Virus record (IMG/VR): IMGVR_UViG_3300017527_000130
Location: 1-42,460 of that record
DNA length: 42,460 bases
Origin: a virus
Reading direction: 5' to 3' (one strand)
Part shown: one piece after another, positions 3,184 through 37,603 of the stretch
How the letters are laid out: each line of letters begins with the position of its first letter
Position numbering within the stretch: position 1 is the first letter of the stretch
Notes under the pieces: generated by a model
What the model was told of the DNA's origin: nothing
The model's database searches: none
The model's input: the letters and a program-made list of their open reading frames with translations, nothing else
Position numbers and translations under genes: made by a program

Positions 3184-3780
3184 TCACTCCAAGCAGAAGA
3201 TTAGCCCTTCCGCTGTTCCTGGCTTGCCCTTGTACCAATACCACTTCGATAATTCAAAGCCGTGACGCTCGACCAACACCTTGAGCGTGTACCATGAATA
3301 CCAGGCAACGTGTTCGCCGTTTACGTGGTCAATCCCGCGCATAGCATAATACTGCGTAACCGACCCGTGCGCGTTGGGGGTGGTCAGTATGACGGTCTTA
3401 TCTTGCTCCCGTAATAGATCCAAGAAATGCCCGGCGTTCGATAGGTGCTCGATAACTTCGGCGGCAATGATAACGTCAAGGTCGGGTATATATGGAAGTT
3501 GTTCCGAATGGTCAAGGTCCATCTGATAATAACGCTCTTCGAATACATCGGGAAGTACGTCAATGCCGTGGTGTTCTTTGGCTACCTGACGCAGCATCTT
3601 ACCCATCGGGCCGGTGCATCCAATATCCAGCACCGTCTTATCTTTGGCGCTCTTCATCAAGAACGCCTCGCGATTGATAACTGGCGCAAGGGGAACCGGG
3701 TGCATCATCTTATGATAATAGACAGATGACAGCCCGCTGTGTTCTTCCGCTTCGTCCAGGTGTTTATATATATCGTTCAT
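3184..3780 (-). CDS. SAM-dependent methyltransferase (class I)
   Basis: This 198-residue class I methyltransferase has motif I VLDIGCTGPMG, an acidic strand GIDVLP, and a motif IV/V region DLDVIIAAEVIEHLSN followed by TTPNAHG, as in the Methyltransf_23/UbiG-like group. I chose the ATG at 3780 over an in-frame TTG at 3789. The gene overlaps the end of the GT4 glycosyltransferase by 17 nt, so the two are probably translated together. Methylation of a sugar or other small acceptor is more likely than DNA methylation, because no target-recognition domain or (D/N/S)PPY motif is present. The acceptor is unknown. Confidence 0.8.
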   Translation of the reverse strand: MNDIYKHLDEAEEHSGLSSVYYHKMMHPVPLAPVINREAFLMKSAKDKTVLDIGCTGPMGKMLRQVAKEHHGIDVLPDVFEERYYQMDLDHSEQLPYIPDLDVIIAAEVIEHLSNAGHFLDLLREQDKTVILTTPNAHGSVTQYYAMRGIDHVNGEHVAWYSWYTLKVLVERHGFELSKWYWYKGKPGTAEGLIFCLE

Positions 3781-4690
3781 ATATGCCAACCGATTGTCTC
3801 ACGGTCTCATCAACGTCGTGATGGTCTTCGGCCCATACTCGATAATCAATCTTGTCATAATTCGCCCAGCAATCAATGATAGCGCTCGCCATGCTTTCGG
3901 GTTGAAGCTCACACTTCCAGGGGTAATTATCATGTTCATTATACCCTGGCCCGATGAACGCCTTGCCTGCTCCGAATGCTTCAATGCCGCGGGCGTATAG
4001 CGGATACAAGCAACTTACCACCATATCAACCCGGTTGTATAACATATTGACATCCTTCTCGTAGCCCTTGATAGACCGCAAGAATGGCCACCATTTGTTG
4101 TTATCGGCTAATGCGTGGAAGGTCTTTTGCATCTTTTCGTTATTGCAGTTGTAAAGGTGCAAGCGCGCCTTCGGGTACTTCTTCCAGACTTCTTGCATTG
4201 CGACGCATAAATACAACGGGTTGCGCTGCCCTCGCCAGTTCTCAATGTATAGGATGGCTGGCTCGCCTGATAGTCTTTCGGTGACGCCTTCCATCGGATA
4301 GAACCTGTCCAGGTCAATACCCTTTGGAACCAGGTAGGTCTTTTTTATGCTATTCCAGATTGGCATTTCTTCTTTTCGCATGGCCACGAAAAAATCCATC
4401 TTCGGCGCAAGGTCAACGATGGCCTTCATGCTGACACCGTTGCCAACGCTAGATAGTGGCTCGCCGTGCATCCACATCCCGCGCGGCTTGTCGTTGAAAT
4501 AACTTTCATAAGGCAGTTGAGAATGAACCAGTTCAATGTCAGGGTCTGTCATTATCCCGTGGAAGGTGTTCCCGTCGGACGGGTTGCGCATGGTGACCTC
4601 GTGGCCCTGTTTCATCTCGCTGTTGGCAAGTTCTAACGTGCTAACAAAAAGACCGCTCAGCTCTTTCTTGACGTAATGCGTTATCTTCAA
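3764..4690 (-). CDS. GT4-like glycosyltransferase (GT-B fold)
   Basis: This 308-residue protein resembles GT-B glycosyltransferases. It has an N-terminal acceptor domain (GLFVSTLELANSEMKQGHEV), the interdomain segment VPKGIDLDRFYP typical of GT4 enzymes, and a C-terminal donor-binding region with GIEAFGAGKAFIGPGY where GT4 members carry their E-x7-E region. It would transfer a nucleotide-activated sugar in the cytoplasm. Its ATG overlaps the stop of the LamG gene by 4 nt (ATGA) and its end overlaps the methyltransferase, so LamG, GT4 and methyltransferase form one coupled cassette. The acceptor could be the neighbouring fibre proteins or a host surface glycan. Confidence 0.8.
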   Translation of the reverse strand: MKITHYVKKELSGLFVSTLELANSEMKQGHEVTMRNPSDGNTFHGIMTDPDIELVHSQLPYESYFNDKPRGMWMHGEPLSSVGNGVSMKAIVDLAPKMDFFVAMRKEEMPIWNSIKKTYLVPKGIDLDRFYPMEGVTERLSGEPAILYIENWRGQRNPLYLCVAMQEVWKKYPKARLHLYNCNNEKMQKTFHALADNNKWWPFLRSIKGYEKDVNMLYNRVDMVVSCLYPLYARGIEAFGAGKAFIGPGYNEHDNYPWKCELQPESMASAIIDCWANYDKIDYRVWAEDHHDVDETVRQSVGIYERYI

Positions 4691-5538: not shown

Positions 5539-6050
5539 TGAACCTCGTCAGGAACTGGTGTCATGAAGAAGCCATTCTCGTCAACATCATTGGTCAACGC
5601 ATCGGCTGAACTGTTCCACATTACCACGTTATAAGCGCGCTCGTAAAGATACACGAACCCACGAACCACCATCTCAACGTCAGCGGTTGCTTCATCAACA
5701 ACGATAGAACCTATCAAGCGCAAGTTGTTCAGCTTATCAACAGCCGACACCGCCGCACTGGTAGTTCCATCGTCATTCGCTGGGTGCGCCGTTGCGCCAT
5801 CAGACGACCCAGCCCCTTTGATATAAAAGTCAACAGTCTCACCAAGAACCGGCGTGGTCGCAAATTGAACGAAGCCGCAAAACTCGTATAATGCTGGCGT
5901 AGCAGCTACGCCGCGGTCGCATTGCGCGGATTGACGACCTGCGGCCGCGCCGATGTTGTGCATCTCGAAAGCGTAGTCCTCAGCCTGGGCAGCCGCCGCC
6001 GGAACAAACCAAACAGTTGTCTCTGGGTTTTGGTATACTAAATTAGCCAT
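5535..6050 (-). CDS. Hypothetical virion protein
   Basis: This 171-residue protein is beta-rich with few charged clusters and no signal peptide. It shows a central GETVDFYIKGAGSSDG segment and a region LRLIGSIVVDEATADVEMVVRGFVYLYERAY that reads like a jelly-roll or Ig-like structural fold. It has a strong GAGGTGATTT ribosome-binding site and overlaps the LamG gene by 4 nt. A structural role in the tail-fibre cluster is inferred from context; I cannot name the family. Confidence 0.6.
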   Translation of the reverse strand: MANLVYQNPETTVWFVPAAAAQAEDYAFEMHNIGAAAGRQSAQCDRGVAATPALYEFCGFVQFATTPVLGETVDFYIKGAGSSDGATAHPANDDGTTSAAVSAVDKLNNLRLIGSIVVDEATADVEMVVRGFVYLYERAYNVVMWNSSADALTNDVDENGFFMTPVPDEVQ

Positions 6051-6058
6051 AAATCACC

Positions 6059-6496
6059 TCACAAATTAGCCGAATGACCGACCTGGGATATCGAGATTGT
6101 TCGACCCTCGCCCCATAGAACCTCAGCCCGTGACCCGTCTCTCTGGACAACGGCAATAAGATTATTCCTGGTATCCGTTCCTGCTTCAAAAATGTCTAGC
6201 AAATTGGTTCTTACCTCCGTTCCATTTTCTTTGGTAGAGATTTCTATCAAGGCGGGTAATAGCTGCAAATAAAGCCGTTCGGCCGCTGACGCTGCAACCC
6301 AATCGACCAGCGTTATTTGCTCTATGATTTCTTTGGGTTGTACATTTGTTCGCTGTATTGTTTCACCATTCGCAGGATCATTTATCAATCCAGCAATAAC
6401 AGCATCCTCTTTCCACTCGCCGCCAATCTTGTACCCCAATCCTTCGGGGTCGGCTTCAATCTCATCATGTAACGCTTGCAAACTGTATTCAGCCAT
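6059..6496 (-). CDS. Hypothetical tail-associated protein
   Basis: This 145-residue protein begins MAEYSLQALHDEIEADPEGLGY and is largely helical in its first 110 residues (EIIEQITLVDWVAASAAERLYLQLLP). Proteins with this opening occur in phage tail/fibre neighbourhoods, but I do not know a function. It has a strong AGGAGATAGAT ribosome-binding site and lies between the endolysin and the virion protein at 5535. Confidence 0.6.
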   Translation of the reverse strand: MAEYSLQALHDEIEADPEGLGYKIGGEWKEDAVIAGLINDPANGETIQRTNVQPKEIIEQITLVDWVAASAAERLYLQLLPALIEISTKENGTEVRTNLLDIFEAGTDTRNNLIAVVQRDGSRAEVLWGEGRTISISQVGHSANL

Positions 6497-6505
6497 ATCT
6501 ATCTC

Positions 6506-7756
6506 CTATACTTGTACCTTATCAGCCCGGCAGAATAACGCAACGCCTTCGGCTGTTATCTCCATCTGGTAATAATCCCGCGTTCCATCCGCATCAATCA
6601 GCCCAGGGTATACCTCGAAGGTCTGCCCGGTGGTGAACTTCTTGCGCGGCTCGTATATCGCCATCATTGGTTTAGGACCACCCTTTTCGGGAGGCACCTT
6701 ATTGTAGTCGTACACGTAGCACGCTAGCACCTTGTCACCCGTCACTGTTGCGGTCACGGTGTCTTTTGCTTCGTGTTGATGTGATAGCACCTTCAGCTTT
6801 GCAACCTCGTTTGTTAGCAGCGTAAACCCTTTTTCGAGTTTACTTATAGCGGTTTTGTTCTCGAACATTTCAACTTGTAGTGTATTAACCTGGATGGCAA
6901 GCGCCTGGTAGTTGGCCTCCAGCGTCGCGACACGCTGCTCAAGTTCGGGATCTACCGGCGGCGGGTCTGGGTCGGGAGGTACGGGCTCAAGCTCCGAATA
7001 TTCCAACAGGTGCTCAAGCGTTCCGTTGTACCAGTCTAAATCAACGTGGGCATTCGGTACACCCTCGATGCTGCCCTCTTCGCTGTACTGCCAAAAGGTC
7101 CAGTCTTCCCAGTCGCGCGGGCGGTAGATGTCGTTATCTTCCCACGGATGTTCTATCGCTGTGTTGTATCTTGCAATCCAAAGGTCGCACTCGCCGAATG
7201 AAGAACGCGGTACGGTGTTTTCGTTCCACCAGTTACCGCGGGTGTAAATGATGGGCATTCGGTTGAACTGCCCCTCTATCATCCAAATCAATTCGTCAAT
7301 CAGGTCGGATATATACGCCGGTGACTGGTTGCGTGACAGCTCGCAGTCAAGCGCAATCGGCAACTCTGGCTCACGGTCACCAAATACCTTCATAAAATCA
7401 TCCCAATGTGCCTGAGCTGATACCCGTTTGTAGTTCCATTCGGCGGACCATGCGGGCGCAACCACGATATACGGGGTGCGTAATATACCAGCCGCCCCGA
7501 AGCCTTCCCAGTTCTCAGCAAATCTAACGTCGGTGTAATAGTCGCCCACCGTGCAACGCATAGCGGCGAACTTGACGCCATCCTGGAAGCATTGATGATA
7601 GTCGATGCTACCCTGCCATTTGCTCACATCAATGCCGAAGGTCTTGGGGTCACTCCCGTTATCGGTAAGCCACCATCTATCAGGCGCGGCGGTAATAGCC
7701 ATATCCTGACGCGGGTACGGGAATGGGGTCGCAGTGCTGTATCTTGATTGTCTCAT
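6506..7756 (-). CDS. GH25-type endolysin with coiled-coil C-terminal half
   Basis: A 416-residue protein whose residues ~38-250 match GH25 muramidases. It opens with FGIDVSKWQG carrying Asp43 and has the catalytic pair Asp137/Glu139 in ALDCE. Strands MPIIYTRGNWW and ECDLWIARYN and a late WTFWQYSEEG are typical of the barrel. It should cleave the beta-1,4 bond between N-acetylmuramic acid and N-acetylglucosamine. A Pro/Asp linker follows (~256-273), then a coiled coil (~275-325) and a C-terminal beta domain that may oligomerise or bind the wall. No signal peptide is seen, so release through a holin is expected. It overlaps the metallophosphatase by 4 nt. Because of the long C-terminal part, a virion-bound lysin is an alternative. 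Confidence 0.85.
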   Translation of the reverse strand: MRQSRYSTATPFPYPRQDMAITAAPDRWWLTDNGSDPKTFGIDVSKWQGSIDYHQCFQDGVKFAAMRCTVGDYYTDVRFAENWEGFGAAGILRTPYIVVAPAWSAEWNYKRVSAQAHWDDFMKVFGDREPELPIALDCELSRNQSPAYISDLIDELIWMIEGQFNRMPIIYTRGNWWNENTVPRSSFGECDLWIARYNTAIEHPWEDNDIYRPRDWEDWTFWQYSEEGSIEGVPNAHVDLDWYNGTLEHLLEYSELEPVPPDPDPPPVDPELEQRVATLEANYQALAIQVNTLQVEMFENKTAISKLEKGFTLLTNEVAKLKVLSHQHEAKDTVTATVTGDKVLACYVYDYNKVPPEKGGPKPMMAIYEPRKKFTTGQTFEVYPGLIDADGTRDYYQMEITAEGVALFCRADKVQV

Positions 7757-11560: not shown

Positions 11561-11770
11561 ATGACAGCGGCAAGAGTTATGATTTCATTGTTCATTTCAA
11601 CCTTCTGGGCACTGGCAGCCCTGGGTATCTTCAGCCTGACCACGCTGCCACCGCTCGTTTGCGCCGGGGTGGTGTGGGTGTTCGTGTTCGTGTTCACATG
11701 GTGCGGGATTGGATTGTGCCAGGCGGCGGCGGTGACTGATGAGGCGATAAGGGAAGCGGGGGAAGAATGA
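11561..11770 (+). CDS. Two-helix small membrane protein
   Basis: A 69-residue protein with two hydrophobic spans (FISTFWALAALGIFSL and VCAGVVWVFVFVFTWCGIGL) and an acidic C-terminus. It is preceded by the hairpin at 11528 and a GAAAGG ribosome-binding site and overlaps the next gene by 4 nt. Function unknown. Confidence 0.6.
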   Translation: MTAARVMISLFISTFWALAALGIFSLTTLPPLVCAGVVWVFVFVFTWCGIGLCQAAAVTDEAIREAGEE

Positions 11771-12471
11771 CATATATTGCATTCTCAGGTGGTAAAGATA
11801 GTACAGCACTAGCGCTTCTTATGCCGGATGCAATACCAGTATTCACCGATACCGGCGCAGAGTTTCCAGAACTATACGCCCACATTGATAAGTTTGAACG
11901 CGTAACAGGTCGAGTTGTATTTCGAATTAAAAGCCATCTGGGCAGTCTCCTGGATTATATCAAGTCAAGTAAGTTTATGCCTGGACACCGGGCGCGTTAC
12001 TGTACCGTAAAATTCAAGATACAACCATTCGAGAAATTGACCAGCGAGTACGCGGTTGCATTGCGAGCGGATGAAAATAGAATAGGCAACAGCAACGGCA
12101 AGGTTTGGTATCCGCTTCAAGATATGGGAATTGACCTGATAGAAGTTGTTCGTATTTGTCTTGAACATGACCTGTTGCCCCGTTATCCCGTTTACATGGC
12201 TCGCGGCGGGTGCGTGAACTGCTTCTATAAGCGCCGCTCAGAAGTTCAAGCCATGCACGAGTTGATACCCGACACGCTGGATGAATTACAAGACATTGAA
12301 GAATATGTGCAAGATGAGCGCGGCAAGTATGCGCTGATGTTCCCGAATGCAGGCAGGTCAATTCGTGACTTGCGCAGGCAAACTACAATGTTCAAGCCGG
12401 AAGACGTATATCGAGACGCCAGTAATACCAGCGATTACGGCACGAACTGTGGATTGTTCTGTAATAGATAA
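11767..12471 (+). CDS. PAPS-reductase-like N-type ATP pyrophosphatase
   Basis: A 234-residue member of the adenine-nucleotide alpha-hydrolase/PAPS reductase superfamily. SGGKDS (7-12) is the PP-loop, followed by PVFTDTGAEFPE and HRARYCTVKFKIQPFEKL. A Cys cluster near residue 150 (GGCVNCFYKRR) and another at the C-terminus (NCGLFC) could hold an Fe-S cluster or act in sulfur relay. Phage members of this group are usually uncharacterised. Possible roles include sulfonucleotide reduction and thiolation of nucleic acid. The phage also encodes a sulfotransferase (35013-35645), so a link to sulfur donors is possible. Confidence 0.75.
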   Translation: MTYIAFSGGKDSTALALLMPDAIPVFTDTGAEFPELYAHIDKFERVTGRVVFRIKSHLGSLLDYIKSSKFMPGHRARYCTVKFKIQPFEKLTSEYAVALRADENRIGNSNGKVWYPLQDMGIDLIEVVRICLEHDLLPRYPVYMARGGCVNCFYKRRSEVQAMHELIPDTLDELQDIEEYVQDERGKYALMFPNAGRSIRDLRRQTTMFKPEDVYRDASNTSDYGTNCGLFCNR

Positions 12472-28935: not shown

Positions 28936-29355
28936 TTATGTGGTAATGTCCGTTTGGATCTTGACTTCGGTCATTGTGTAGGTGACGCCCAGCGTATCAA
29001 CACCACCCCAGGACAACGGGCCGAATGTGTAACTGATGGGTCCGAATGTTGCCAAATATGTATACCCGCTGGTTCGTAATAATTTATATAATTCTATTGG
29101 TATCGTGTCGATTAGATCCATCACTTTCGTATAATCCCGCGGCAGGTCTTTGCGCGCAACGTGCAACTCAATATTTATTGAATGGATTGCCCGCATGAGT
29201 TCCGGCGGTCCGATATTATAGTCACCGAATGAAGGATACACCACCGCAAACGGGAACGAGTTGTTGGTTTCGGGTGGCTCTTCTGGAACACGCCGAATGC
29301 CGCTTATAGTTTGCAGCTCATCAATGATTTCACTTATCGCGTCTTTGAGTGCCAT
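28936..29355 (-). CDS. Tail terminator / tail completion protein
   Basis: A 139-residue protein (ALKDAISEIIDELQTISGIR, then NNSFPFAVVYPSFGDYNIGP) with the alpha-then-beta pattern of tail terminators that cap the tube. It sits between the connector and the tail tube and overlaps the connector by 1 nt (TAATG). Confidence 0.68.
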   Translation of the reverse strand: MALKDAISEIIDELQTISGIRRVPEEPPETNNSFPFAVVYPSFGDYNIGPPELMRAIHSINIELHVARKDLPRDYTKVMDLIDTIPIELYKLLRTSGYTYLATFGPISYTFGPLSWGGVDTLGVTYTMTEVKIQTDITT

Positions 29356-29963
29356 TAGAACCTCAGAATATAGGGTAAGACCAGCATCATAAAATCAGTG
29401 TCAGCACGTAAGTTCGTTACCACGACTTGAAGCTGACCGACTGCCGCCGCCGCACTTATACCGAGCGGCGTATCTTGTCTTTGCATCAGTCGATTGGTCG
29501 CCAGGTAGCAGGCCTCTGAAATGGGTGCGGGTGCTGACGACCATCCGAACTTGCCGGCAATCTCGACACCCTTCGCGATACCCTTTGGGAACCAATAGTT
29601 ACCATTGGGATTAAGTCGGATCTCCCGGTAAGGTTCGCTATCAAGCGCCGCATTCCAGGGCCAGAGGTCATAATCATCCGTAGCCGACCAGGTGTTCTCA
29701 TAAGTGCGGTCGTTATCGTTATCAGTCTTGAGTGTCGTGATTGATACAATCCGATTAGGTAATCTCAGGTAGTCGCTGTGGGTTGCTGTAAAGTATCGGG
29801 TCTCATCGGCGGCGGTGGTAAAGAAACGCTGCCAGCAAATATGGTCAATCGCCCTTGATATGCCCGTGATATACGATTCGATTGCGCCGTCGTCTTCGGT
29901 GTCTTCGATGTCGTGGCGTCTCTTGAACTCTGCAAGTGTTCCGTATCCGTTTGTTATAGCCAT
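29355..29963 (-). CDS. Head-tail connector (gp6-like adaptor)
   Basis: A 202-residue protein. The N-terminus (YGTLAEFKRRHDIEDTEDDG, then IESYITGISRAIDHICWQRF) is the helical pattern of gp6/gp15-type adaptors; a beta stretch and a C-terminal helix with SEACYLATNRLMQR follow. It overlaps the glycosyltransferase upstream by 10 nt. Confidence 0.75.
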   Translation of the reverse strand: MAITNGYGTLAEFKRRHDIEDTEDDGAIESYITGISRAIDHICWQRFFTTAADETRYFTATHSDYLRLPNRIVSITTLKTDNDNDRTYENTWSATDDYDLWPWNAALDSEPYREIRLNPNGNYWFPKGIAKGVEIAGKFGWSSAPAPISEACYLATNRLMQRQDTPLGISAAAAVGQLQVVVTNLRADTDFMMLVLPYILRF

Positions 29964-30868
29964 AAATCACTCAACTCGTATCGCGTGTATTGTTTCACCA
30001 ACCATCGCCAATTATCGGGCCATGTTCTAATCGGCCAAAACCTGTCTACCAGCCACTCGAAATCGTGTATGCGCTCTTCCCATTTGTTATTCCACCAGTA
30101 GTCCCAGACGTGTAGATAAACATTAGTCAGTTCCCTGATTGAAACCCTGCCAGCGACTTCCGGCGGGCTTGACCAATGGGAACTAGGTTTCGACCAGTGG
30201 GCGTACCATGTCTTTTTATTTCTCAACACCATACCTTCGATAGGCCCAAGCTGGACGGGGAGCGCTAACTGTTGCGGCTCTTCGCCAAATGTGCCATACA
30301 TATCATTAGTCATACCGCCGATATAATCCCAGAATAACGATCTATTCATAAACCAACATGAGCCCTGGAAACTCATCTCTTCTGAGATGTCATCGTCTTG
30401 TTGGCGTAACTGCCGCGGCTTGTCGGGTCTGGCGGTCAATCGTGGGCGATAAGGTCTTGTAAATGGGTATATATAAGACATCGCATCCACATACGGCTTG
30501 CTTTCGACAATCTTCCAGGTCGGTGCGTCGAACCAATAACGTCTCGGTACGACAATGCAATTATCAGGACAATCGCTCTTGAGTATCTTGTCCCATCCTG
30601 GACCGATAGAACAATGAGCGTCTATCTTCATCAGATACTTACCGGTTGCTTCTTTGGCGCCCTTGTCCAGACTGTATCGCATTCCCTTCACGCCTCGATT
30701 GCGCAGAATACGAAGCCCTTTCTTTCGATTGATTCGGTAGTCAGGCTTTTCGCCGTCAATCACAAGCAGCACTTCGATCTCATCTTCGGCGTTGTCGTAT
30801 AAGTCTTTGATGGTTTCGTTTATGTATGGTTCTTTGCGGGCGGGCATAATGACGCTGACTTTGCTCAT
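29954..30868 (-). CDS. GT2-like glycosyltransferase (GT-A fold)
   Basis: A 304-residue GT2-type enzyme: SVIMPARKEPYINETIKDL opening, a VIDGEKPD strand, and KIDAHCSIGPGWD near residue 90, where DAH stands in for the metal-binding DxD. A WFMNRSLFWDYIGGM acceptor-site segment follows, as in GT2/GT27-like enzymes. ATG 30868 overlaps the methyltransferase stop by 4 nt. It is inserted between head-tail connector and capsid genes, so its acceptor may be the virion. Confidence 0.8.
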   Translation of the reverse strand: MSKVSVIMPARKEPYINETIKDLYDNAEDEIEVLLVIDGEKPDYRINRKKGLRILRNRGVKGMRYSLDKGAKEATGKYLMKIDAHCSIGPGWDKILKSDCPDNCIVVPRRYWFDAPTWKIVESKPYVDAMSYIYPFTRPYRPRLTARPDKPRQLRQQDDDISEEMSFQGSCWFMNRSLFWDYIGGMTNDMYGTFGEEPQQLALPVQLGPIEGMVLRNKKTWYAHWSKPSSHWSSPPEVAGRVSIRELTNVYLHVWDYWWNNKWEERIHDFEWLVDRFWPIRTWPDNWRWLVKQYTRYELSDLWL

Positions 30869-31359
30869 GGCTTCACCCAATACCAGGAATTGCAGGTCAG
30901 GATATATACATCTTCTATCCCGTTGTTGTCGGCGTATTCCTTGACGGCCCGCTTGACGCCCGGCTCATCGTTGCTGTAATCGTGACCGGCGACAATGCCG
31001 CCAGACCTCACCTTCTTTGACCAGTGCCTAATGTCGAACGATACGCTCTCGTAGCTGTGGTCTGCGTCAATGTAGACGTAATCGAGCACTCCATAACCGA
31101 ACAACCTGAGGGCGTCTGCGCTGGTCTTTCTGATAATCTCAACATTGTCAAGTGGTGACAATCGCTTGATAGCCTTCTGATAATATGCTTCGTTGTACCA
31201 CGGGTCTATGCTGTATAACTTCGCATTGCGGTTATACTTGGCGAGAATGTGAGAGAAGTTGCCCTCAGCCACGCCAATCTCAGCACCCATTTGAAATTCA
31301 AGATAGCTGAAGACGGCCGCTAGTCCTGTGCGCCCGTAGCCCTTGTGTATTTTATTCAT
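30865..31359 (-). CDS. SAM-dependent methyltransferase (Methyltransf_24-like)
   Basis: A 164-residue class I methyltransferase: AEIGVAEGNFS (motif I), a LYSIDPW strand, LDYVYIDADHSYE and GGIVAGHDY, the pattern of Methyltransf_24 enzymes that often modify sugars or glycan ends. It overlaps the DUF115-like gene upstream by 8 nt and the GT2 gene downstream by 4 nt, forming one coupled cassette. Confidence 0.8.
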   Translation of the reverse strand: MNKIHKGYGRTGLAAVFSYLEFQMGAEIGVAEGNFSHILAKYNRNAKLYSIDPWYNEAYYQKAIKRLSPLDNVEIIRKTSADALRLFGYGVLDYVYIDADHSYESVSFDIRHWSKKVRSGGIVAGHDYSNDEPGVKRAVKEYADNNGIEDVYILTCNSWYWVKP

Positions 31360-32440
31360 GCGGACCTACAATCAATTCGGCTTGACTGATTGCCCGTGTC
31401 CCACCAACGGCGGTTACAAGTTCGTCGTATTTATTCATATACTGCGCGTTCTCGCGGAAGATGCCCAGATGATGACCGGTTTCATAGGCCAGGTCTGTCT
31501 TTTTCTTTAGGAACATTCGCAACTGCTGAAGCGCTTCACCTTGCCCGGTCTGCTGCCATAAGTTCCAGACGTATTCAGCGGTTCCGGCGGCGTGGTTCAT
31601 TTCGTCTTTCTTGGTCTCGCCGTCAAGTTGTGCTTGAGCGCATACCCGTTCAAACTCTTGCCTACTAATCGGGTCGGTACGTTCAAAGTATCGGAACGCT
31701 TCGGATAATGCCCCGGATGCCTCGCCCGCTTTCATGGCGGCGCTTTCCAGGTTCAGCGATAGCCTGCCCACGTCATCGGGTTTGAATGCCATCATAGCGT
31801 CATTCATCTTCTGGTCAATCTTTTCCATTGAACGCTTGTTCAATCGTGCAGGTGGAGCCAGGTCGTCAATACGAAGCTGGAAGAACGACGGGTCAATCTG
31901 TAACTCGCCTTCGTATCCATATATCGGCTGATTAAATTCAGACTGCCAGCACTCCATCCTCAAATCAATACCGCGCCCGTGGGCGAAGCCAATCCAGAAT
32001 GCAAAGTTGACCGCCTGGTATCCGTACTCGGTATTGCTTGACAGTTCATTGCCGTATAGTTCGATGTGTTCGTATCCGAGGTGTATAGCAAGTGCAAGCG
32101 CCATTGCCGGGGTGCTGCGTAGGTAACGGTAAGGGACCATCGACAAGATTTCTTCGAGCGGGTATTTCTTGGAATTGGGCACTCGTTCATCGACATCCAT
32201 CATCCAAATAACATTATCGCCGTGGTCTTGTTGAAGCCAGGACCAATGGTCTTTGTTTACCCAGTTGGTCTCAGACGTATATACTTCGGGCTTGTGCATC
32301 TGGAAGGATTGCGTCCAGCGCTTATATGTCTCCGGCTTTTGAGGTGCTTCATTGTATAGCCAGATTTCGAACTCTTCATTTTGGTAAGGTGCATTCTCCC
32401 TGGTCTCAGGGTGACTTCCAACTATGGCGAGCTTTTTCAC
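31352..32440 (-). CDS. Rossmann-like DUF115/MAF-type protein, copy 1
   Basis: A 362-residue protein starting at GTG 32440 with an AGTGAAAGG ribosome-binding site. The N-terminal half is alpha/beta: LAIVGSHP, HWSWLQQDHGDNVIW and the ELYGNELSSNTEYGYQAVNF block, also present in copy 2 (36127-36966). The block resembles DUF115/MAF-type proteins that act with flagellin or surface glycosylation. The C-terminal half is helical and may be an oligomerisation arm. Role in glycan synthesis is inferred from family resemblance and neighbours. Confidence 0.55.
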   Translation of the reverse strand: MKKLAIVGSHPETRENAPYQNEEFEIWLYNEAPQKPETYKRWTQSFQMHKPEVYTSETNWVNKDHWSWLQQDHGDNVIWMMDVDERVPNSKKYPLEEILSMVPYRYLRSTPAMALALAIHLGYEHIELYGNELSSNTEYGYQAVNFAFWIGFAHGRGIDLRMECWQSEFNQPIYGYEGELQIDPSFFQLRIDDLAPPARLNKRSMEKIDQKMNDAMMAFKPDDVGRLSLNLESAAMKAGEASGALSEAFRYFERTDPISRQEFERVCAQAQLDGETKKDEMNHAAGTAEYVWNLWQQTGQGEALQQLRMFLKKKTDLAYETGHHLGIFRENAQYMNKYDELVTAVGGTRAISQAELIVGPHE

Positions 32441-32462
32441 AGTATGAGCCTTTCACTAGAGA

Positions 32463-32483
32463 TGGGCGTCCCCCTAACGCCCA
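32463..32483 (-). terminator. Hairpin between virion gene and DUF115-like gene
   Basis: TGGGCGT (32463-32469) and ACGCCCA (32477-32483) form a perfect 7-bp stem with a 7-nt loop in the short gap between two late genes. No T tract follows, so it is more likely an RNA-processing or attenuation element than a full terminator. Confidence 0.4.
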
Positions 32484-32497
32484 CATTGAACATAGTA

Positions 32498-32998
32498 TTA
32501 CGCAGAAGCAGAAGCCGTTGCGCTGATGTGAGTAGTTTGCTTATAGCGGGCTTCCAAGAAAGCGAAGCCAGCAACCAATGTTGCTTCGGCATCGACGTCA
32601 GTCAGAACCGCGCGAGCGTATCGGTATTCGTTAGCCGCCAACTCGTCCGGGTCAATCTCGATGAGATAGCCCATGTTGTCATTCTCATCTGGTGCTACTG
32701 CAACGCCAGCCGAAGTGGCCGTGGTCACAGCGCCCCAGGTGTTAGCACCAACAGCGCCGGAAAGACGATACCGGAAAGCGATAGCCGCCTCGGCCCCGCC
32801 TTCAGCGGTTGCGCATTCAATGGTGATTGTCCAGTCATCCGTAACGGTTGCGCTTGTAACGGCCCCGAACTGGAGCAAGAACCACGCTTTTTGAGCGTTG
32901 CGAAGGTCCACATAAGGACAAGTGGTTGCCGTGCTTACGATGTCTTGCGGAGCAAGAAAGCATACGATGTTGTCATATCCTGCGAATGGATTAGCCAT
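32498..32998 (-). CDS. Head decoration / minor virion protein
   Basis: A 166-residue Ala/Thr-rich beta protein immediately after the capsid gene (AQKAWFLLQFGAVTSATVT, then TITIECATAEGG). Place and composition fit a capsid-decorating or head-stabilising protein. A good AAGGAGAAAAAT ribosome-binding site gives high expression, as expected for a virion component. Confidence 0.65.
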   Translation of the reverse strand: MANPFAGYDNIVCFLAPQDIVSTATTCPYVDLRNAQKAWFLLQFGAVTSATVTDDWTITIECATAEGGAEAAIAFRYRLSGAVGANTWGAVTTATSAGVAVAPDENDNMGYLIEIDPDELAANEYRYARAVLTDVDAEATLVAGFAFLEARYKQTTHISATASASA

Positions 32999-33027
32999 TT
33001 TATTTTTCTCCTTATATTAGATTCGGT

Positions 33028-34842
33028 TTAGGTGGAAGCTGCGGTCAGCACAACGAACGGTGACAGGGTGTCGCCTGCGTCTTTTGGTGTCAGTGCTGAG
33101 TTCCAGAGCGGTTGACCATCGGTTCGATAAACGAAGCGGAAAACCGTCTCATCCGTCAAGAATTGAACATGAATGGATGAAGCCGACTGTACGCCGCCCT
33201 TGTTGATGGTCTGGTATTGGCTCAGTGACGCCAGCATAATGTCGCCGGTCGTTCCCAGTGCCGCGGTATGTTCAATCTCAAGATACGGCGCACCATATAA
33301 CGAGAATGACGGGTTCGCTTGCCCAGGCTGGTTATTAGGCAGCAAGAAGGGCGCATTACCCAGGGTCAGGTTGATAAGCTGCGGGAACAGGGATTGATTA
33401 GCAAGCCAGACGTAATCACTCACGCCTGCCCAGCGTCGAGCCCACATATTAGCGATGTCGACCTCATCAACCTGGTTGGCGTCAATGCGTGTCACGCTCA
33501 CCAATGCGGGCGAGTTCATAATGCCCAGAGGCATACCAACGCCGGTTCCGGTGTAATATGCGTTCTCAACTCTGAAACGCAGTTCTTCGGGAACTGTGCG
33601 TGATAGCCAGGATTCCAGCGCAACCGCATCTTCCAGAAGTTCATCGGTCGCATAGCACAGGGCCGCAACCTTTTTGAGCTTCAATTCCATTTGACGGAAT
33701 GTCGGCTTGCTCGCGGTCTTCGTTCCACCTTCGGCCATCCAGTACCCCAGAATGCCACCCCAGCGGGAGCCATCGGCGCGGCTGGTTTCATCAACTGCGT
33801 TATATAGCATCGAGTTGGAATTGGGTCCAATCTGGTCGCTTGCAACGCGGCTGATGATTTCACCACCGCTGTACATACGTTCGATAAGCCCGCCAGCTAA
33901 CTGCGGTGACAATAGATACCCACCATCGGCGGGCACGTTCTCGCTCAACCCGGTGGCCTTGCGGCTCAACAGTCGAACGTCTTGCCGCGATGGATAGAGC
34001 GCGGCGTTTTTGACAGCCTGGAAAAATTGCCCGGCCGTCTCGAATGGCTGGTCTGCCTCATCGACCTCGACTTTTACTTTCGCGCCTTCGGTCTTTGCGG
34101 GCAGATCCTTCATAGCCTTTTCAACGCCAGCTTTGACAGCCGCTTCAACGTCCACCGGTTCCGGTGTCGATTCGGCTCCTGCCTTGACGGCATTATCAAG
34201 CATCTCTTGGAGTTTCTCCTCAGTGATCTCCATTTTTGTTACCTCCATGTTGTTGGTCTTTCTTTGACCATGATTAGTTGCTTCTGGACCTGCCCCGCCT
34301 TCTTGAACTGGCTCTTCGCCTGGTTCATCCTTTGGCTCGCGTTCCATCAGCGGTTTAACTTCGATTGATTTCAGCGGCACTACCCCATTGCGAGGTTCCG
34401 CCGGTGTCGGTGTCAGTGATGCGTCCAGACCCAAAGGCCATGACTTAATCCACACCGCGTCATTCTTTTGCTCATGTTCTACAAGATGACCGGCGGTCCC
34501 ACTTGACCACCCTTGCTTGCCCTTCTCTGCCATCTCGTAAATATAACTTTCGTATTCGTCCCTCATGTTGAGCTGCGCTTCTGCCCATACCCCGAAGTCA
34601 TCGGTCTTCAGTTCAGCCTTGCCCAACTTGCGGTGCTTGAGTACCGGGTCTTGACCGTGCTGATAATAGACCGGAGCGGTGGAAGCATCCCCGAAGTCGG
34701 TATCCTTCGTGAAGAACTCACCGACCAGGTCGGGCTCTCGCTCGCTGGTGAAGCGCACCAGGTAGCCGCCGACCTTTCCCTCACCGAGTGCCTTGATGGG
34801 CTCCCCGTAGTATATAAGTTGTTCTTCGTTGTCTTTGTCCAT
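33028..34842 (-). CDS. Prohead protease-major capsid protein fusion (HK97 type)
   Basis: A 604-residue polyprotein-like gene. Residues ~8-165 are a U35/S78-type prohead protease with His62 in YQHG and the Ser113/Ser114 pair in GWSSGTAGH. Residues ~200-290 form a helical delta/scaffold domain. The rest is an HK97-fold capsid protein (ADGGYLLSPQLAGGLIERM, then a C-terminal LSQYQTINKGG strand). ATG 34842 has an AAGGTGAGC ribosome-binding site. An internal start at residue 204 could yield capsid without protease. Confidence 0.88.
   Translation of the reverse strand: MDKDNEEQLIYYGEPIKALGEGKVGGYLVRFTSEREPDLVGEFFTKDTDFGDASTAPVYYQHGQDPVLKHRKLGKAELKTDDFGVWAEAQLNMRDEYESYIYEMAEKGKQGWSSGTAGHLVEHEQKNDAVWIKSWPLGLDASLTPTPAEPRNGVVPLKSIEVKPLMEREPKDEPGEEPVQEGGAGPEATNHGQRKTNNMEVTKMEITEEKLQEMLDNAVKAGAESTPEPVDVEAAVKAGVEKAMKDLPAKTEGAKVKVEVDEADQPFETAGQFFQAVKNAALYPSRQDVRLLSRKATGLSENVPADGGYLLSPQLAGGLIERMYSGGEIISRVASDQIGPNSNSMLYNAVDETSRADGSRWGGILGYWMAEGGTKTASKPTFRQMELKLKKVAALCYATDELLEDAVALESWLSRTVPEELRFRVENAYYTGTGVGMPLGIMNSPALVSVTRIDANQVDEVDIANMWARRWAGVSDYVWLANQSLFPQLINLTLGNAPFLLPNNQPGQANPSFSLYGAPYLEIEHTAALGTTGDIMLASLSQYQTINKGGVQSASSIHVQFLTDETVFRFVYRTDGQPLWNSALTPKDAGDTLSPFVVLTAAST
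34233..34246 (-). promoter_or_regulatory. Internal ribosome-binding site for capsid-only product
   Basis: On the minus strand GGAGGT (34241-34246) lies 7 nt before an in-frame ATG (34231-34233) that starts exactly at the scaffold domain (MEITEEKLQEML). Initiation here would give a 401-residue scaffold-capsid protein. Confidence 0.6.
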
Positions 34843-34863
34843 GCTCACCTTCCTAACAAAAAA

Positions 34864-34923
34864 ACAGCGCCAGAAATGCAAAAAGGGAAGTGTAAACTTC
34901 CATCTCTGCTTTTCTGCCGCTGT
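34864..34923 (-). terminator. Long stem-loop in the capsid leader
   Basis: Four paired blocks are nested: ACAGCG/CGCTGT, CAGAAA/TTTCTG, GCA/TGC and GGAAGT/ACTTCC, 21 bp in all, closed by a 4-nt loop. On the minus strand the inner stem is followed by a short T run. It lies between the capsid promoter and the capsid ribosome-binding site, so it can act as attenuator, processing site or 5' stabiliser. Confidence 0.6.
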
Positions 34924-34970
34924 CTATTGACTAATCGGCTCCATCAAGCTGTGTTTATTCGGTTGCCCCT

Positions 34971-34999
34971 AGTCTAGCATATTACGGGGATGTTGTCAA
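34971..34999 (-). promoter_or_regulatory. Capsid promoter
   Basis: Minus-strand TTGACA (34994-34999), 17-bp spacer, TAGACT (34971-34976) preceded by TGC. Over 32 bp it agrees with the regulator promoter at 18450 at 25 positions. It lies in a 170-bp gap upstream of the protease-capsid gene. Confidence 0.7.
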
Positions 35000-35012
35000 A
35001 TCCGCATCCTAA

Positions 35013-35645
35013 TCAACCGCGCCGGTACGCCCGCGTTGACGCTGTAATCCTCTCCCCATCGTCAACCAATAGCCGCCGAAGGTCCGCAATCTCGGCGATG
35101 GGTGATGTATCGTTCAACTTCGCATATCCGTAGTCAACCATCGAACGCCAGCACACCCGTTCTAATCGGTCACGCTGCGCCCGTGTCACCTTCGGCTTGA
35201 AGGGTGTCACATGGGTGACTGGTAATTCGGTGTCAATCTCAAGGTCGAATAACAACTGATGGGCATCTTCCATCTTGTATATCTTGACGCTCGGATGTTG
35301 ATACATCCCGTATATGGTGCTGACAATATCACGGTCCAGCCATTCAACGAACACGTCCCATGGCATACCTTCGGCGTACTGCGTCAACCCCATGATGACG
35401 CTCCAATACTGACGCGAGTTAGACTTATACAGCCAGTCGTTGTTGTTGCGATATGCCCAGATAGAACGAAGCCAGTCTACCGGGTTGCGCACCATCGTAA
35501 AGCCGCGGTCAATCGTCTCAGGCAATCCGTGGTATGGACCGACCTCGACACCCTTGCCCATCTGGTCGGTGAGGAACTGACGGAAGCCGAACCCGCCGCA
35601 TTTCGGAATGTGGATGAACGTACCCCAGTCGCCTACGTATGCCAT
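35013..35645 (-). CDS. Sulfotransferase
   Basis: A 210-residue protein with the two PAPS-binding signatures of sulfotransferases: the 5'-phosphosulfate loop IHIPKCGGFGFR (11-22) and the 3'-phosphate motif MVRNPVDWLRSIW (51-63). It would move sulfate from PAPS to a hydroxyl or amino group, most likely on a sugar. The His/Lys of HIPK and the Arg/Ser of the second motif are intact. It overlaps the secreted protein upstream by 1 nt (TAATG). Sulfotransferases are uncommon in phages; the neighbours include glycosyl- and methyltransferases. Confidence 0.75.
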   Translation of the reverse strand: MAYVGDWGTFIHIPKCGGFGFRQFLTDQMGKGVEVGPYHGLPETIDRGFTMVRNPVDWLRSIWAYRNNNDWLYKSNSRQYWSVIMGLTQYAEGMPWDVFVEWLDRDIVSTIYGMYQHPSVKIYKMEDAHQLLFDLEIDTELPVTHVTPFKPKVTRAQRDRLERVCWRSMVDYGYAKLNDTSPIAEIADLRRLLVDDGERITASTRAYRRG

Positions 35646-36127
35646 TAGTCACCACCAATCAGAGGCATGAATACAGACCTCATCACATTTATAGAGCCGT
35701 CGTCAATGCGCCCGGTAACGCTGACGCCATTGCCACCGAATGAGGTGCTTATCAGGTCGAGGTGGCTACCGGTTGACTCTTGCGGCACATCGAACACCAG
35801 GTCAAATATAACGCCGTCTGGCAATGGCGTCGCCGGGGAGGTGAAGCTGTAAAGCAGCACCGTTACATGGTCATCGAACCGGGTGTCGTCGGCCATGACC
35901 CAATCGTCGGGTAATGCGCCCCGCTCAATACCTTCGTATGATACGTTATCGTTGTCATAATAGATGTGGGTAATTATAGCGTCAACGTGTACACCGTTCG
36001 ATGTGAACTCCATCGGGACCGAAATCACCATGCCGGGCGGCGTCCATACGTGGCTAATATCGAGTACAGGCATGGGCGCACCTTGCCCGAATATGGAAGC
36101 GATGAGCGCAAGTAGTAATGCTTTCAT
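35645..36127 (-). CDS. Secreted cohesin-like protein
   Basis: A 160-residue protein with an N-terminal signal segment (MKALLLALIASIFGQG). The body resembles cohesin-type beta sandwiches (GMVISVPMEFTSN, then PDGVIFDLVFDVP), the fold that binds dockerins. It ends SVFMPLIGGD, like the xYLPLVxK ends of Chloroflexota secreted proteins. It overlaps both neighbours by 1 nt. Its place in the head cluster, next to the sulfotransferase, may mean it is a modified surface protein. Confidence 0.6.
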   Translation of the reverse strand: MKALLLALIASIFGQGAPMPVLDISHVWTPPGMVISVPMEFTSNGVHVDAIITHIYYDNDNVSYEGIERGALPDDWVMADDTRFDDHVTVLLYSFTSPATPLPDGVIFDLVFDVPQESTGSHLDLISTSFGGNGVSVTGRIDDGSINVMRSVFMPLIGGD

Positions 36128-36966
36128 TATGTCTTCACCGTCATGCCGCTTGTTATCGTCAAGTCGGTCGGTTTCAGGTCAACGTTGTCGAGAAGGTCAT
36201 TCATCACCTGGAGCGACACGTCGCAGGCGAGCGTGTTGTCCTTTGCTAACAGGTAATCGTTATATGCGACCTGCCCCTTCTTATCAATCTCCAGCTTGCG
36301 GTCGGGGTCATCTTCGGCCTCGAACATCTCTTTCAACGTGTCGAACTTACCTTTGGCCTGGTGGAACTCGGTAAGGCGCTCATCGAACTGCTTCTGGTAT
36401 TCGGTCTTTATCTTCTCTAATGTCTGCCTGCTTATCATCTGAAAACCTCCATCGTACCCGTACAATGCCGAGTTCAGCAAGTTAGAATTATCTGGAATGT
36501 ACACGTCAACGCCGCGACCTTGCGCTAGTCCTATCAGGTATTCGGTCCCCGCTTTCTGGTATGCGTACTCGGTCCCCGACGCCATCTCAATCCCGTATAA
36601 CTCAATCCTATCGAACTCCTCAAGCAGCGCCAGACCGAGCATATACGACACCGTGCTGGTGAAGTAAGGGCGTCCTACGTTGGCGATAACTTCATCAATG
36701 GGATACAAAACCGACGCCGGTATCTCTGGGTAATCTTCAATCATGTAAATGGGGAAGTCGTGCGGCTCTTGAAGCCAGGCCCAATGGTCTTCCATTTCAT
36801 CCCCTCTTGCGTTCAAGTGCCAGCGTGGATGTAAGTCAAGAAGTCGGTCAACGCGTGGCGGGTCATACTGCCACACCCAATTGACCGACCATATCTCATC
36901 GGCTTCGCTGTTGTGTACTAAGTCCCTTGTCTTTGGAGCATAGCAGTACAGGGCGACTGATTTCAC
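36127..36966 (-). CDS. Rossmann-like DUF115/MAF-type protein, copy 2
   Basis: A 279-residue protein starting at GTG 36966 behind AGTGAAAGGCT, the same translation start context as copy 1 (31352-32440). Shared blocks include HWAWLQEPHD and ELYGIEMASGTEYAYQKAG followed by GLAQGRGVDVY. The C-terminal ~100 residues are a charged coiled coil rather than the longer arm of copy 1. A role in surface glycan modification is inferred. Confidence 0.55.
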   Translation of the reverse strand: MKSVALYCYAPKTRDLVHNSEADEIWSVNWVWQYDPPRVDRLLDLHPRWHLNARGDEMEDHWAWLQEPHDFPIYMIEDYPEIPASVLYPIDEVIANVGRPYFTSTVSYMLGLALLEEFDRIELYGIEMASGTEYAYQKAGTEYLIGLAQGRGVDVYIPDNSNLLNSALYGYDGGFQMISRQTLEKIKTEYQKQFDERLTEFHQAKGKFDTLKEMFEAEDDPDRKLEIDKKGQVAYNDYLLAKDNTLACDVSLQVMNDLLDNVDLKPTDLTITSGMTVKT

Positions 36967-36982: not shown

Positions 36983-37603
36983 TTATGCGGCGTTAGTATG
37001 CTCGTACCATGTAAGATGCAATGTAGCGGCGTCGGCGGCTGCGCCATATACGCTAACCTGATAGTTGGTATTCTGCTTCAGGATAATCTCATCCCTGCCG
37101 CCCGACTCAGCACCACTAGAAAAGCGACCGTCACCAAATATGTACTCATCAATTAGCGTGATAGTGGCAGCACCCGACTCGGCCAATGATGCGTCATAAG
37201 ACATCTTGGCAGCAACCGCCGCGCCCGTGTCCCATGATAGCATTCCGCTCGCCCCGGTGCTGTTACGGTCACTGTTCAAGATGCTCACCGTCCCAGTCGC
37301 TCCGGTAGTGCCGCCGGTGGTCGAGTTCTCAATCAGTCGAACACGCCAGCCCGCCGTGCCTTTTACCGAGAAGTTGAAGTGAGCCCATTTCTCGGTATTG
37401 GGCGTTGTCCAAGATAGCGTTATCATGTCGTCTGGACCTTCCATCGCATCCAGACTTGCAACGCTGTATACCACGAAATAATGACTGCCGCCGTGGATTT
37501 CGTGGTGTGCGTAGTCGATAACCTGCAAGCTGTTGGTAGATGCGTCCGCTTTCAATGCCACATCTTTCGTTCCCGCTTGCGCTCTTAATTTTGTGCTGCC
37601 CAT
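36983..37603 (-). CDS. Virion structural protein
   Basis: A 206-residue beta-rich protein beginning MGSTKLRAQAGTKDVALKAD and containing an EIHGGSHYFVVYSV segment. Proteins with this start lie in head gene clusters of many siphoviruses and are thought to be virion proteins; exact role unknown. A strong AAGGAGTAAATATC ribosome-binding site suggests high expression. Confidence 0.65.
   Translation of the reverse strand: MGSTKLRAQAGTKDVALKADASTNSLQVIDYAHHEIHGGSHYFVVYSVASLDAMEGPDDMITLSWTTPNTEKWAHFNFSVKGTAGWRVRLIENSTTGGTTGATGTVSILNSDRNSTGASGMLSWDTGAAVAAKMSYDASLAESGAATITLIDEYIFGDGRFSSGAESGGRDEIILKQNTNYQVSVYGAAADAATLHLTWYEHTNAA

Follow-up and report, generated by a model that had tools for sequence, protein, structure and literature searches.

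A head-gene module with a Maf-fold protein, a conserved Ser/Thr tail and a predicted sulfotransferase in an uncultured tailed phage

The IMG/VR virus record IMGVR_UViG_3300017527_000130, called the window here over its whole length of 42,460 nucleotides, carries among its head genes a minus-strand set of genes for glycan-modifying-type proteins (Table 1). These are a GT2 glycosyltransferase, a Methyltransf_24 methyltransferase, two proteins called DUF115a and DUF115b and a sulfotransferase-like protein, and with them lie a cohesin-like protein, the major capsid protein and the capsid neighbour g166. Their placement is as the first-pass annotation of this DNA had described it. PHROG matches, which in the window comprise terminase, portal, MuF-type, Neck1, HK97-type capsid, head-tail adaptor and tape measure proteins, put TerL, portal, MuF and Neck1 on one side of the set and the adaptor on the other. 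The window is probably a near-complete, circularly mapped tailed-phage genome, because the IMG/VR contig L002 (L numbers designate the other contigs and loci) matches it at 42460-25016 at 99.97% and at 2935-1 at 100%, on both sides of a 250-base gap.

The GT2 and Methyltransf_24 assignments of the annotation, and that of a second methyltransferase in the fibre cluster, are borne out by Pfam scores well above cut-off. The GT4 enzyme that had been placed in the same cluster scores below cut-off and has no support from the PDB, and the cohesin label likewise falls short of its Pfam threshold. Adjacent genes had been described as coupled by overlaps of 1-10 nt, which fits the overlaps of 1, 1, 8 and 10 nt but not one of 16 nt, nor the remaining junctions, which are gaps of 16, 131, 29 and 57 nt. 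The 131-nt gap, between the sulfotransferase and capsid genes, holds a promoter-like site.

Table 1. Features of the head-gene module and related genes of the window
Feature	Position	Strand	Basis and remarks
Methyltransf_23 methyltransferase, fibre region	3184..3789	-	PF13489 44.8 bits (cut-off 27)
Possible GT4-like protein, unconfirmed	3764..4690	-	PF13692 15.1 bits, below cut-off (27)
Head-tail adaptor, module boundary	29355..29963	-	phrog_442 5.2e-14
GT2 glycosyltransferase	29954..30880	-	PF00535 54.5 bits (cut-off 23.3)
Methyltransf_24 methyltransferase	30865..31359	-	PF13578 70.2 bits (cut-off 26.3)
DUF115a, Maf/GT42-fold domain (1-168) and long C-terminal helices	31352..32440	-	AlphaFold2 (AF2), VIA-align; constant enzyme-like gene of the module
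g166, decoration-type protein adjoining capsid	32498..32998	-	role suggested by place; nearly invariant C-terminal tail
g166 tail YKQTTHISATASASA, proposed O-glycosylation acceptor	32501..32545	-	tail conservation
HK97-type major capsid protein	33028..34881	-	phrog_10 2.8e-29; N-terminal extension; Ser/Thr/Ala-rich C-terminus
Capsid-gene leader, with promoter-like site (34999-34971) and hairpin	34886..34999	-	counterparts in relatives
Sulfotransferase-like protein, Sulfotransfer_2 type	35013..35645	-	hidden Markov model (HMM), hhalign, motif alignment
Cohesin-like protein, N-terminus secreted-looking by eye	35645..36127	-	PF00963 20.0 bits, below Pfam cut-off (24.1)
DUF115b, DUF115a paralogue with shorter C-terminal part	36127..36966	-	29% identity
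Virion-type protein upstream of DUF115b	36983..37603	-	role suggested by place; two other phage contigs encode relatives

The capsid, g166 and DUF115a block

The capsid search gives 12 loci, including the near-twin of the window, and the alignment of DUF115 proteins gives 28 loci, with some contigs shared. The genes for capsid, g166 and DUF115a are consecutive in L010-L018, and this order recurs in many related records, beyond what chance would give. DUF115a, which is 58-66% identical to the window copy among the capsid relatives, is found in those whose sequence reaches that far. The block is kept in L015, L017, L018 and L031-L034 though blastp finds no match to the window for the genes that take the terminase, portal and protease places there, a short terminase stretch of L017 excepted. 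In 84,980 species genomes the patterns used find no DUF115a, and the capsid search gives five loci of metagenome-assembled genomes (MAGs); the MAG matches of the capsid include a Chloroflexi bin, an Anaerolineales bin, Planctomycetota, Kiritimatiellae and Parcubacteria.

The genes that follow DUF115a are variable. Methyltransf_24 and GT2 stand directly after it in the window, L010, L011, L012 and L027, GT2 alone in L028 and L029, Methyltransf_23 alone in L022, L024, L025 and L026 (a near copy of L025), and Methyltransf_23 with a Sulfotransfer_1 protein in L013. At this place L032 encodes a 772-residue protein that matches both GT1 and GT2, L037 has a weak GT2 match, as does L038, which is nearly a copy of it, and L036 has a protein that is GT-A-like by eye. 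In L040, eight genes with matches of sugar- or methyl-transfer type, one of them below cut-off, lie upstream of the DUF115 gene. The sequence stops too early after DUF115a in L018, L023, L035 and L039. Capsid, g166 and DUF115a thus form the constant unit, after which sugar-, methyl- and sulfo-transfer-type enzymes are interchangeable. This exchange rules out that the six enzymes are one fixed pathway. Co-occurrence of the same set in related phages had been suggested as a check, and it is not what is found: in the capsid relatives legible at this place, L010-L013, Neck1 is followed directly by the capsid gene, and the block of sulfotransferase, cohesin-like protein and DUF115b is missing. A 24-residue stretch right after DUF115a at L016 4214 and L017 8459 matches the beginning of GT2 at 54% identity and is perhaps a decayed glycosyltransferase gene.

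The GT2 family has a DAHC motif that is constant in 7/7 members. Its profile matches 15 PDB sequences, 11 of which are polypeptide GalNAc-transferases, where the motif aligns as D-x-H-C; the match to these is weak (E 2.4e-4 and worse) and the top three sequences are bacterial GT2s. The result agrees with a protein O-glycosylation role without proving it.

DUF115a has a predicted structure (AF2 with 22 sequences) of predicted local distance difference test (pLDDT) 87.4 and predicted TM-score (pTM) 0.52, in which a Rossmann-type domain precedes long C-terminal helices at 184-357. N30, H49, S109, E138 and Q142 are conserved residues of DUF115a. The best VIA-align match of this model is the Maf glycosyltransferase 5mu5 (Z 10.9, 156 residues, 3.2 A), followed by CstII-type sialyltransferases at Z 10.5 and lower and then by pyrophosphokinases for pterin and thiamine (Z 9.8 and 9.7). 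Sequence profiles of DUF115a find no relative in the PDB, and Foldseek against BFVD gives two matches at E <= 0.001, of which one is labelled an uncharacterised phage protein and the other carries no name. The two proteins had been called DUF115/MAF-type, a label that finds no support from the Pfam family at sequence level but agrees with the modelled fold of DUF115a. Because VIA-align ranks 5mu5 first, the Maf label of the model holds at the level of fold, and fold likeness is no proof of sugar transfer. DUF115b is recovered by the DUF115 profile, which itself includes DUF115b.

The sole relative of DUF115a and DUF115b found in a cultured phage is encoded at L055 7908-8711, in Microcystis phage Mvi-Yong1342-1, where it is annotated as 'type 11 methyltransferase' and immediately precedes the terminase genes. 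In L037 (5383-7694) and L038, phages that lack g166, a tandem pair of DUF115a paralogues has a homologue of g139 on one side and the major tail protein on the other, and may be a module directed at the tail.

The g166 protein, which matches nothing among cultured phages and has no convincing PDB relative, ends in a short tail that is better conserved than its body. ATASAS[AV] ends 24/25 g166 proteins, with L036 as the exception; the retrieval patterns sat in capsid, DUF115a or the body of g166, never in the tail, and L051, a capsid relative whose contig stops in the capsid gene, was excluded from the count. Among 20 distinct g166 proteins the mean frequency of the top residue is 0.96 in the last eight columns and 0.67 in the body, and the invariant columns are 5/8 in the tail and 21/170 in the body. 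TASAS is constant across 21 distinct g166 genes, yet all four Ala codons and both Ser codon types occur, and selection therefore acts on the protein. At least six Ser, Thr or Ala in the last eight residues are found in 16/287 predicted open reading frames of the relatives, 15 of which are g166 and one a capsid protein; Ser/Thr/Ala-rich C-termini are also present on the capsid proteins of most relatives.

The tail is absent in 4/4 MAG homologues of g166 that have no adjoining DUF115a (L049, L050, L052 and L053). L050 and L052 run more than 9 kb beyond g166 with no DUF115a beside it, L053, a short contig, has the adaptor directly after g166, and L049, whose g166 terminates in YKQTTFVSAT, ends 1.3 kb further on, so a later DUF115a is possible there. 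The contrast of 24/25 with 0/4 has a Fisher p of 2e-4, without correction for how the sequences are related; the four MAG proteins are more distant homologues.

Sulfotransferases in the window and in other phages

The sulfotransferase-like protein of the window matches no Pfam family up to E 1, no PHROG and no cultured phage, and PF00685 and PF03567 have no match in the window record, so the sulfotransferase named in the annotation is not recognised by these profiles. It is recognised by a more specific one. Pattern searches found a 32% relative with identical first eight residues in a different phage (L003), encoded about 1.6 kb before a terminase gene, and proteins that pass PF03567 in the T4-like contigs L004, L006, L007 and L008. 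An HMM built from these four viral PF03567 proteins finds the window protein at 3.5e-9, and nothing else in a set of 300 window frames plus 200 shuffled sequences does better than 1.5. In hhalign, the window and L003 proteins match the four T4-like proteins with a probability of 97.5%, over a region that spans both motifs for 3'-phosphoadenosine-5'-phosphosulfate (PAPS). His12, Ile13, Pro14, Lys15, Arg53, Pro55 and Ser61 are unchanged in 6/6 aligned sulfotransferases, and the PK loop and R-x-P.....S motifs that they form part of are what we take to be the PAPS-binding sites. A Ser or Thr usually comes after the GG of the phosphate loop of sulfotransferases, and it is absent in the window protein and in L003. 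A chance reading frame is ruled out by the hhalign and HMM results, and we take the protein to be a divergent sulfotransferase with predicted activity. The same phage encodes a PAPS-reductase-domain protein at 11767-12471 on the plus strand (PF01507 29.0 bits, cut-off 22.5).

A second family, Sulfotransfer_1, is found in three phages, each time among head genes. In L013, whose capsid is 62% identical to that of the window, it lies between DUF115a and the adaptor (PF00685 42.1 bits, cut-off 22). The L060 protein (53.5 bits, same cut-off), which is 43% identical to that of L013, is encoded after the capsid and two decoration-type proteins. It adjoins one protein that is GT-like, though under the cut-offs, and one that is MptE-like, at 5676-6266; the latter has PF01973 34.5 bits against a cut-off of 34.6 and 36.9 bits with its neighbours in frame. 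In L063 a protein 37% identical to that of L060 comes after a capsid gene (PF05065 at cut-off) and another protein, and its gene overlaps that of a protein that is GT-A-like by eye. The Sulfotransfer_2 genes of the T4-like L004 (9386-10030) and L008 (4350-4904) are directly after or overlap the head-closure gene (phrog_218), and those of L006 and L007 are among apparent sugar-enzyme genes, mostly judged by eye; this neighbourhood survey left out L005, which also has a sulfotransferase hit.

A possible glycosylation of the capsid and its alternatives

From the observed gene content, linkage, tail conservation, fold match and sulfotransferase homology we infer an enzymatic activity, with a donor sugar, an acceptor site, sulfation, a location on the particle and a benefit. 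DUF115a, with its Maf/sialyltransferase fold, would put the first sugar on Ser or Thr of the TASASA tail of g166, and the Ser/Thr-rich C-terminus of the capsid protein is a possible additional acceptor. Adjacent enzymes would lengthen and cap the glycan, which in the window would be the GT2, an O-methyltransferase and the PAPS-dependent sulfotransferase, and DUF115b may act on the structural-type protein that adjoins it. Relatives would retain the attachment step and exchange the extension and capping enzymes, in the way to be expected for a surface under diversifying selection.

The chances are about even, in our judgement, that the head operon encodes a phage pathway that O-glycosylates a capsid protein and caps the glycan with methyl or sulfate groups. 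We give a lower chance, clearly less than even, to a sulfated virion glycan and to the wider proposal that some tailed phages bear sulfated and methylated capsid O-glycans. In that proposal a Maf-type enzyme from the head operon would modify a Ser/Thr tail that hardly varies, the caps would be interchangeable, two sulfotransferase families would have been recruited separately and the result would be a variable surface code. Linkage, tail and enzyme exchange across relatives favour a glycan pathway aimed at the virion, which the annotation had proposed alongside the host surface, with a set of enzymes that varies between phages.

Several observations weigh against capsid O-glycosylation. The PF01973 (MptE-like/DUF115) search of the window proteins gave no match, and Foldseek of DUF115a against the PDB is not significant (best E 0.12). 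DUF115a is not followed directly by any recognised sugar enzyme in seven distinct records (L014, L015, L016, L017, L031, L033 and L034), L036 carries DUF115a with a tail-less g166, and L037, L038 and L040 have DUF115 proteins without g166. The presence of g166 in the virion is suggested by gene position, and its tail might be an assembly or interaction signal instead. For the sulfotransferase, 3/4 T4-like relatives have the loop Ser/Thr, two residues past the second-to-last loop position, which the window protein lacks, and its AF2 model is low (pLDDT 39.7) and was not used. Against a recurrence of sulfotransferases, PF00685 is found in 1/30 survey records (L013) and PF03567 in 0/31, and the sulfotransferase of Stenotrophomonas phage DLP6 (GenBank annotation) is encoded among replication genes.

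It appears unlikely that DUF115a keeps an old sugar-enzyme fold in a structural or chaperone role, that TASASA is an assembly or docking signal bound by DUF115a or the capsid and that the glycosyltransferase, methyltransferase and sulfotransferase genes are passengers without relation to it. The long C-terminal helices (184-357) and the seven records without a recognised sugar enzyme would suit such a protein, and the tail and DUF115a co-occur as binding partners would. Passengers would not, however, be expected to belong to the sugar-, methyl- and sulfo-transfer classes in most of the remaining records, and L060 pairs the same enzyme classes with another DUF115 subfamily and other decoration-type proteins.

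GT2 enzymes, methyltransferases and sulfotransferases act on surface polysaccharides too, and they could alter the capsule, lipopolysaccharide or S-layer glycans of the host and exclude other phages, an idea with which the secreted appearance (by eye) of the cohesin-like protein and the extra methyltransferase of the fibre region agree. This is rather doubtful, given that the genes are inside the late head operon and not with early or lysogeny genes, and that the partner kept constant beside them is a capsid neighbour whose Ser/Thr tail is nearly invariant.

The probability is small that the sulfotransferase is an auxiliary metabolic gene for small host metabolites: it lies in the head operon in the window, L013, L060 and L063 and beside the head-closure gene in the T4-like L004 and L008, whereas the position of the DLP6 gene and the accessible part of PMC10580990, which reports phage sulfotransferases to be metabolic genes with an unclear function, point the other way. 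Hypermodification of phage DNA by the enzyme set is highly improbable, for although nucleotide modification by glycosyltransferases and sulfotransferases is reported in phages (the available part of PMC10829341) and the window has C5-cytosine and N6/N4 DNA methylases, no base-hydroxylase or base-hypermodification family is found among 20 scanned window proteins and the genes are linked to capsid genes.

Capsid O-glycosylation as proposed resembles what is known of mycobacteriophage virions, in which capsid and tail-tube subunits are glycosylated at their C-termini (Freeman et al. 2023, Cell Host Microbe, as cited in the accessible part of PMC12619734). It differs from that system, as far as this part describes it, in the constant Maf/GT42-fold enzyme, the separate capsid-neighbour acceptor with a TASASA tail and the recurrent sulfotransferases, and it is proposed here from genes alone. 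With Maf flagellin glycosyltransferases (5mu5; PMC11339370, as far as its available text goes) DUF115a shares the fold of the N-terminal domain and a proposed O-glycosylation of surface Ser/Thr, but it has no PF01973 match, other flanking helices and a phage protein as would-be acceptor. Members of the sulfotransferase superfamily are also present in other tailed phages, which include S-SRM01, an OM43 phage and DLP6; those of the first two are published as genes of unclear function (PMC10580990, accessible part), and that of DLP6 is among replication genes rather than capsid genes.

Sulfation of a phage particle had been called new. In the open-licence literature we found neither a sulfated phage virion nor a capsid module that combines a conserved acceptor tail with recurrent sulfotransferases, but phage sulfotransferases and virion glycosylation are themselves already published. 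If capsid O-glycosylation is correct, phage virion glycosylation reaches an uncultured group, with a likely acceptor peptide and attaching enzyme named, and the phage sulfotransferases gain a function. A negative sulfated shell could alter adsorption to particles, mucus and extracellular polymers. The prediction reduces to one short peptide and one enzyme and is directly testable.

Capsid leader and other genes of the window

The virion-type protein next to DUF115b has no cultured-phage match and no convincing PDB relative, and PF02018 gives it 15.8 bits, under cut-off. The real start of the capsid gene is probably at a later ATG. A GH25 lysozyme-type protein at 6506-7756 on the minus strand is probably the endolysin.

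The leader before the capsid gene has counterparts at L010 630-780, L011 562-708, L012 270-416, L024 2040-2195 and L027 1118-1270. Common to these leaders are the promoter-like site, the stretch CAACTGAATA...GCTTGATGGAG and a long hairpin that resembles a terminator. Capsid leaders from eight sources give no Rfam match at gathering score, and two sub-threshold microRNA matches in one of them were discarded. In six sequences of the hairpin, 13/31 predicted pairs have two-sided changes that keep the pairing, and the leader looks like an attenuator or another structured leader of the capsid gene.

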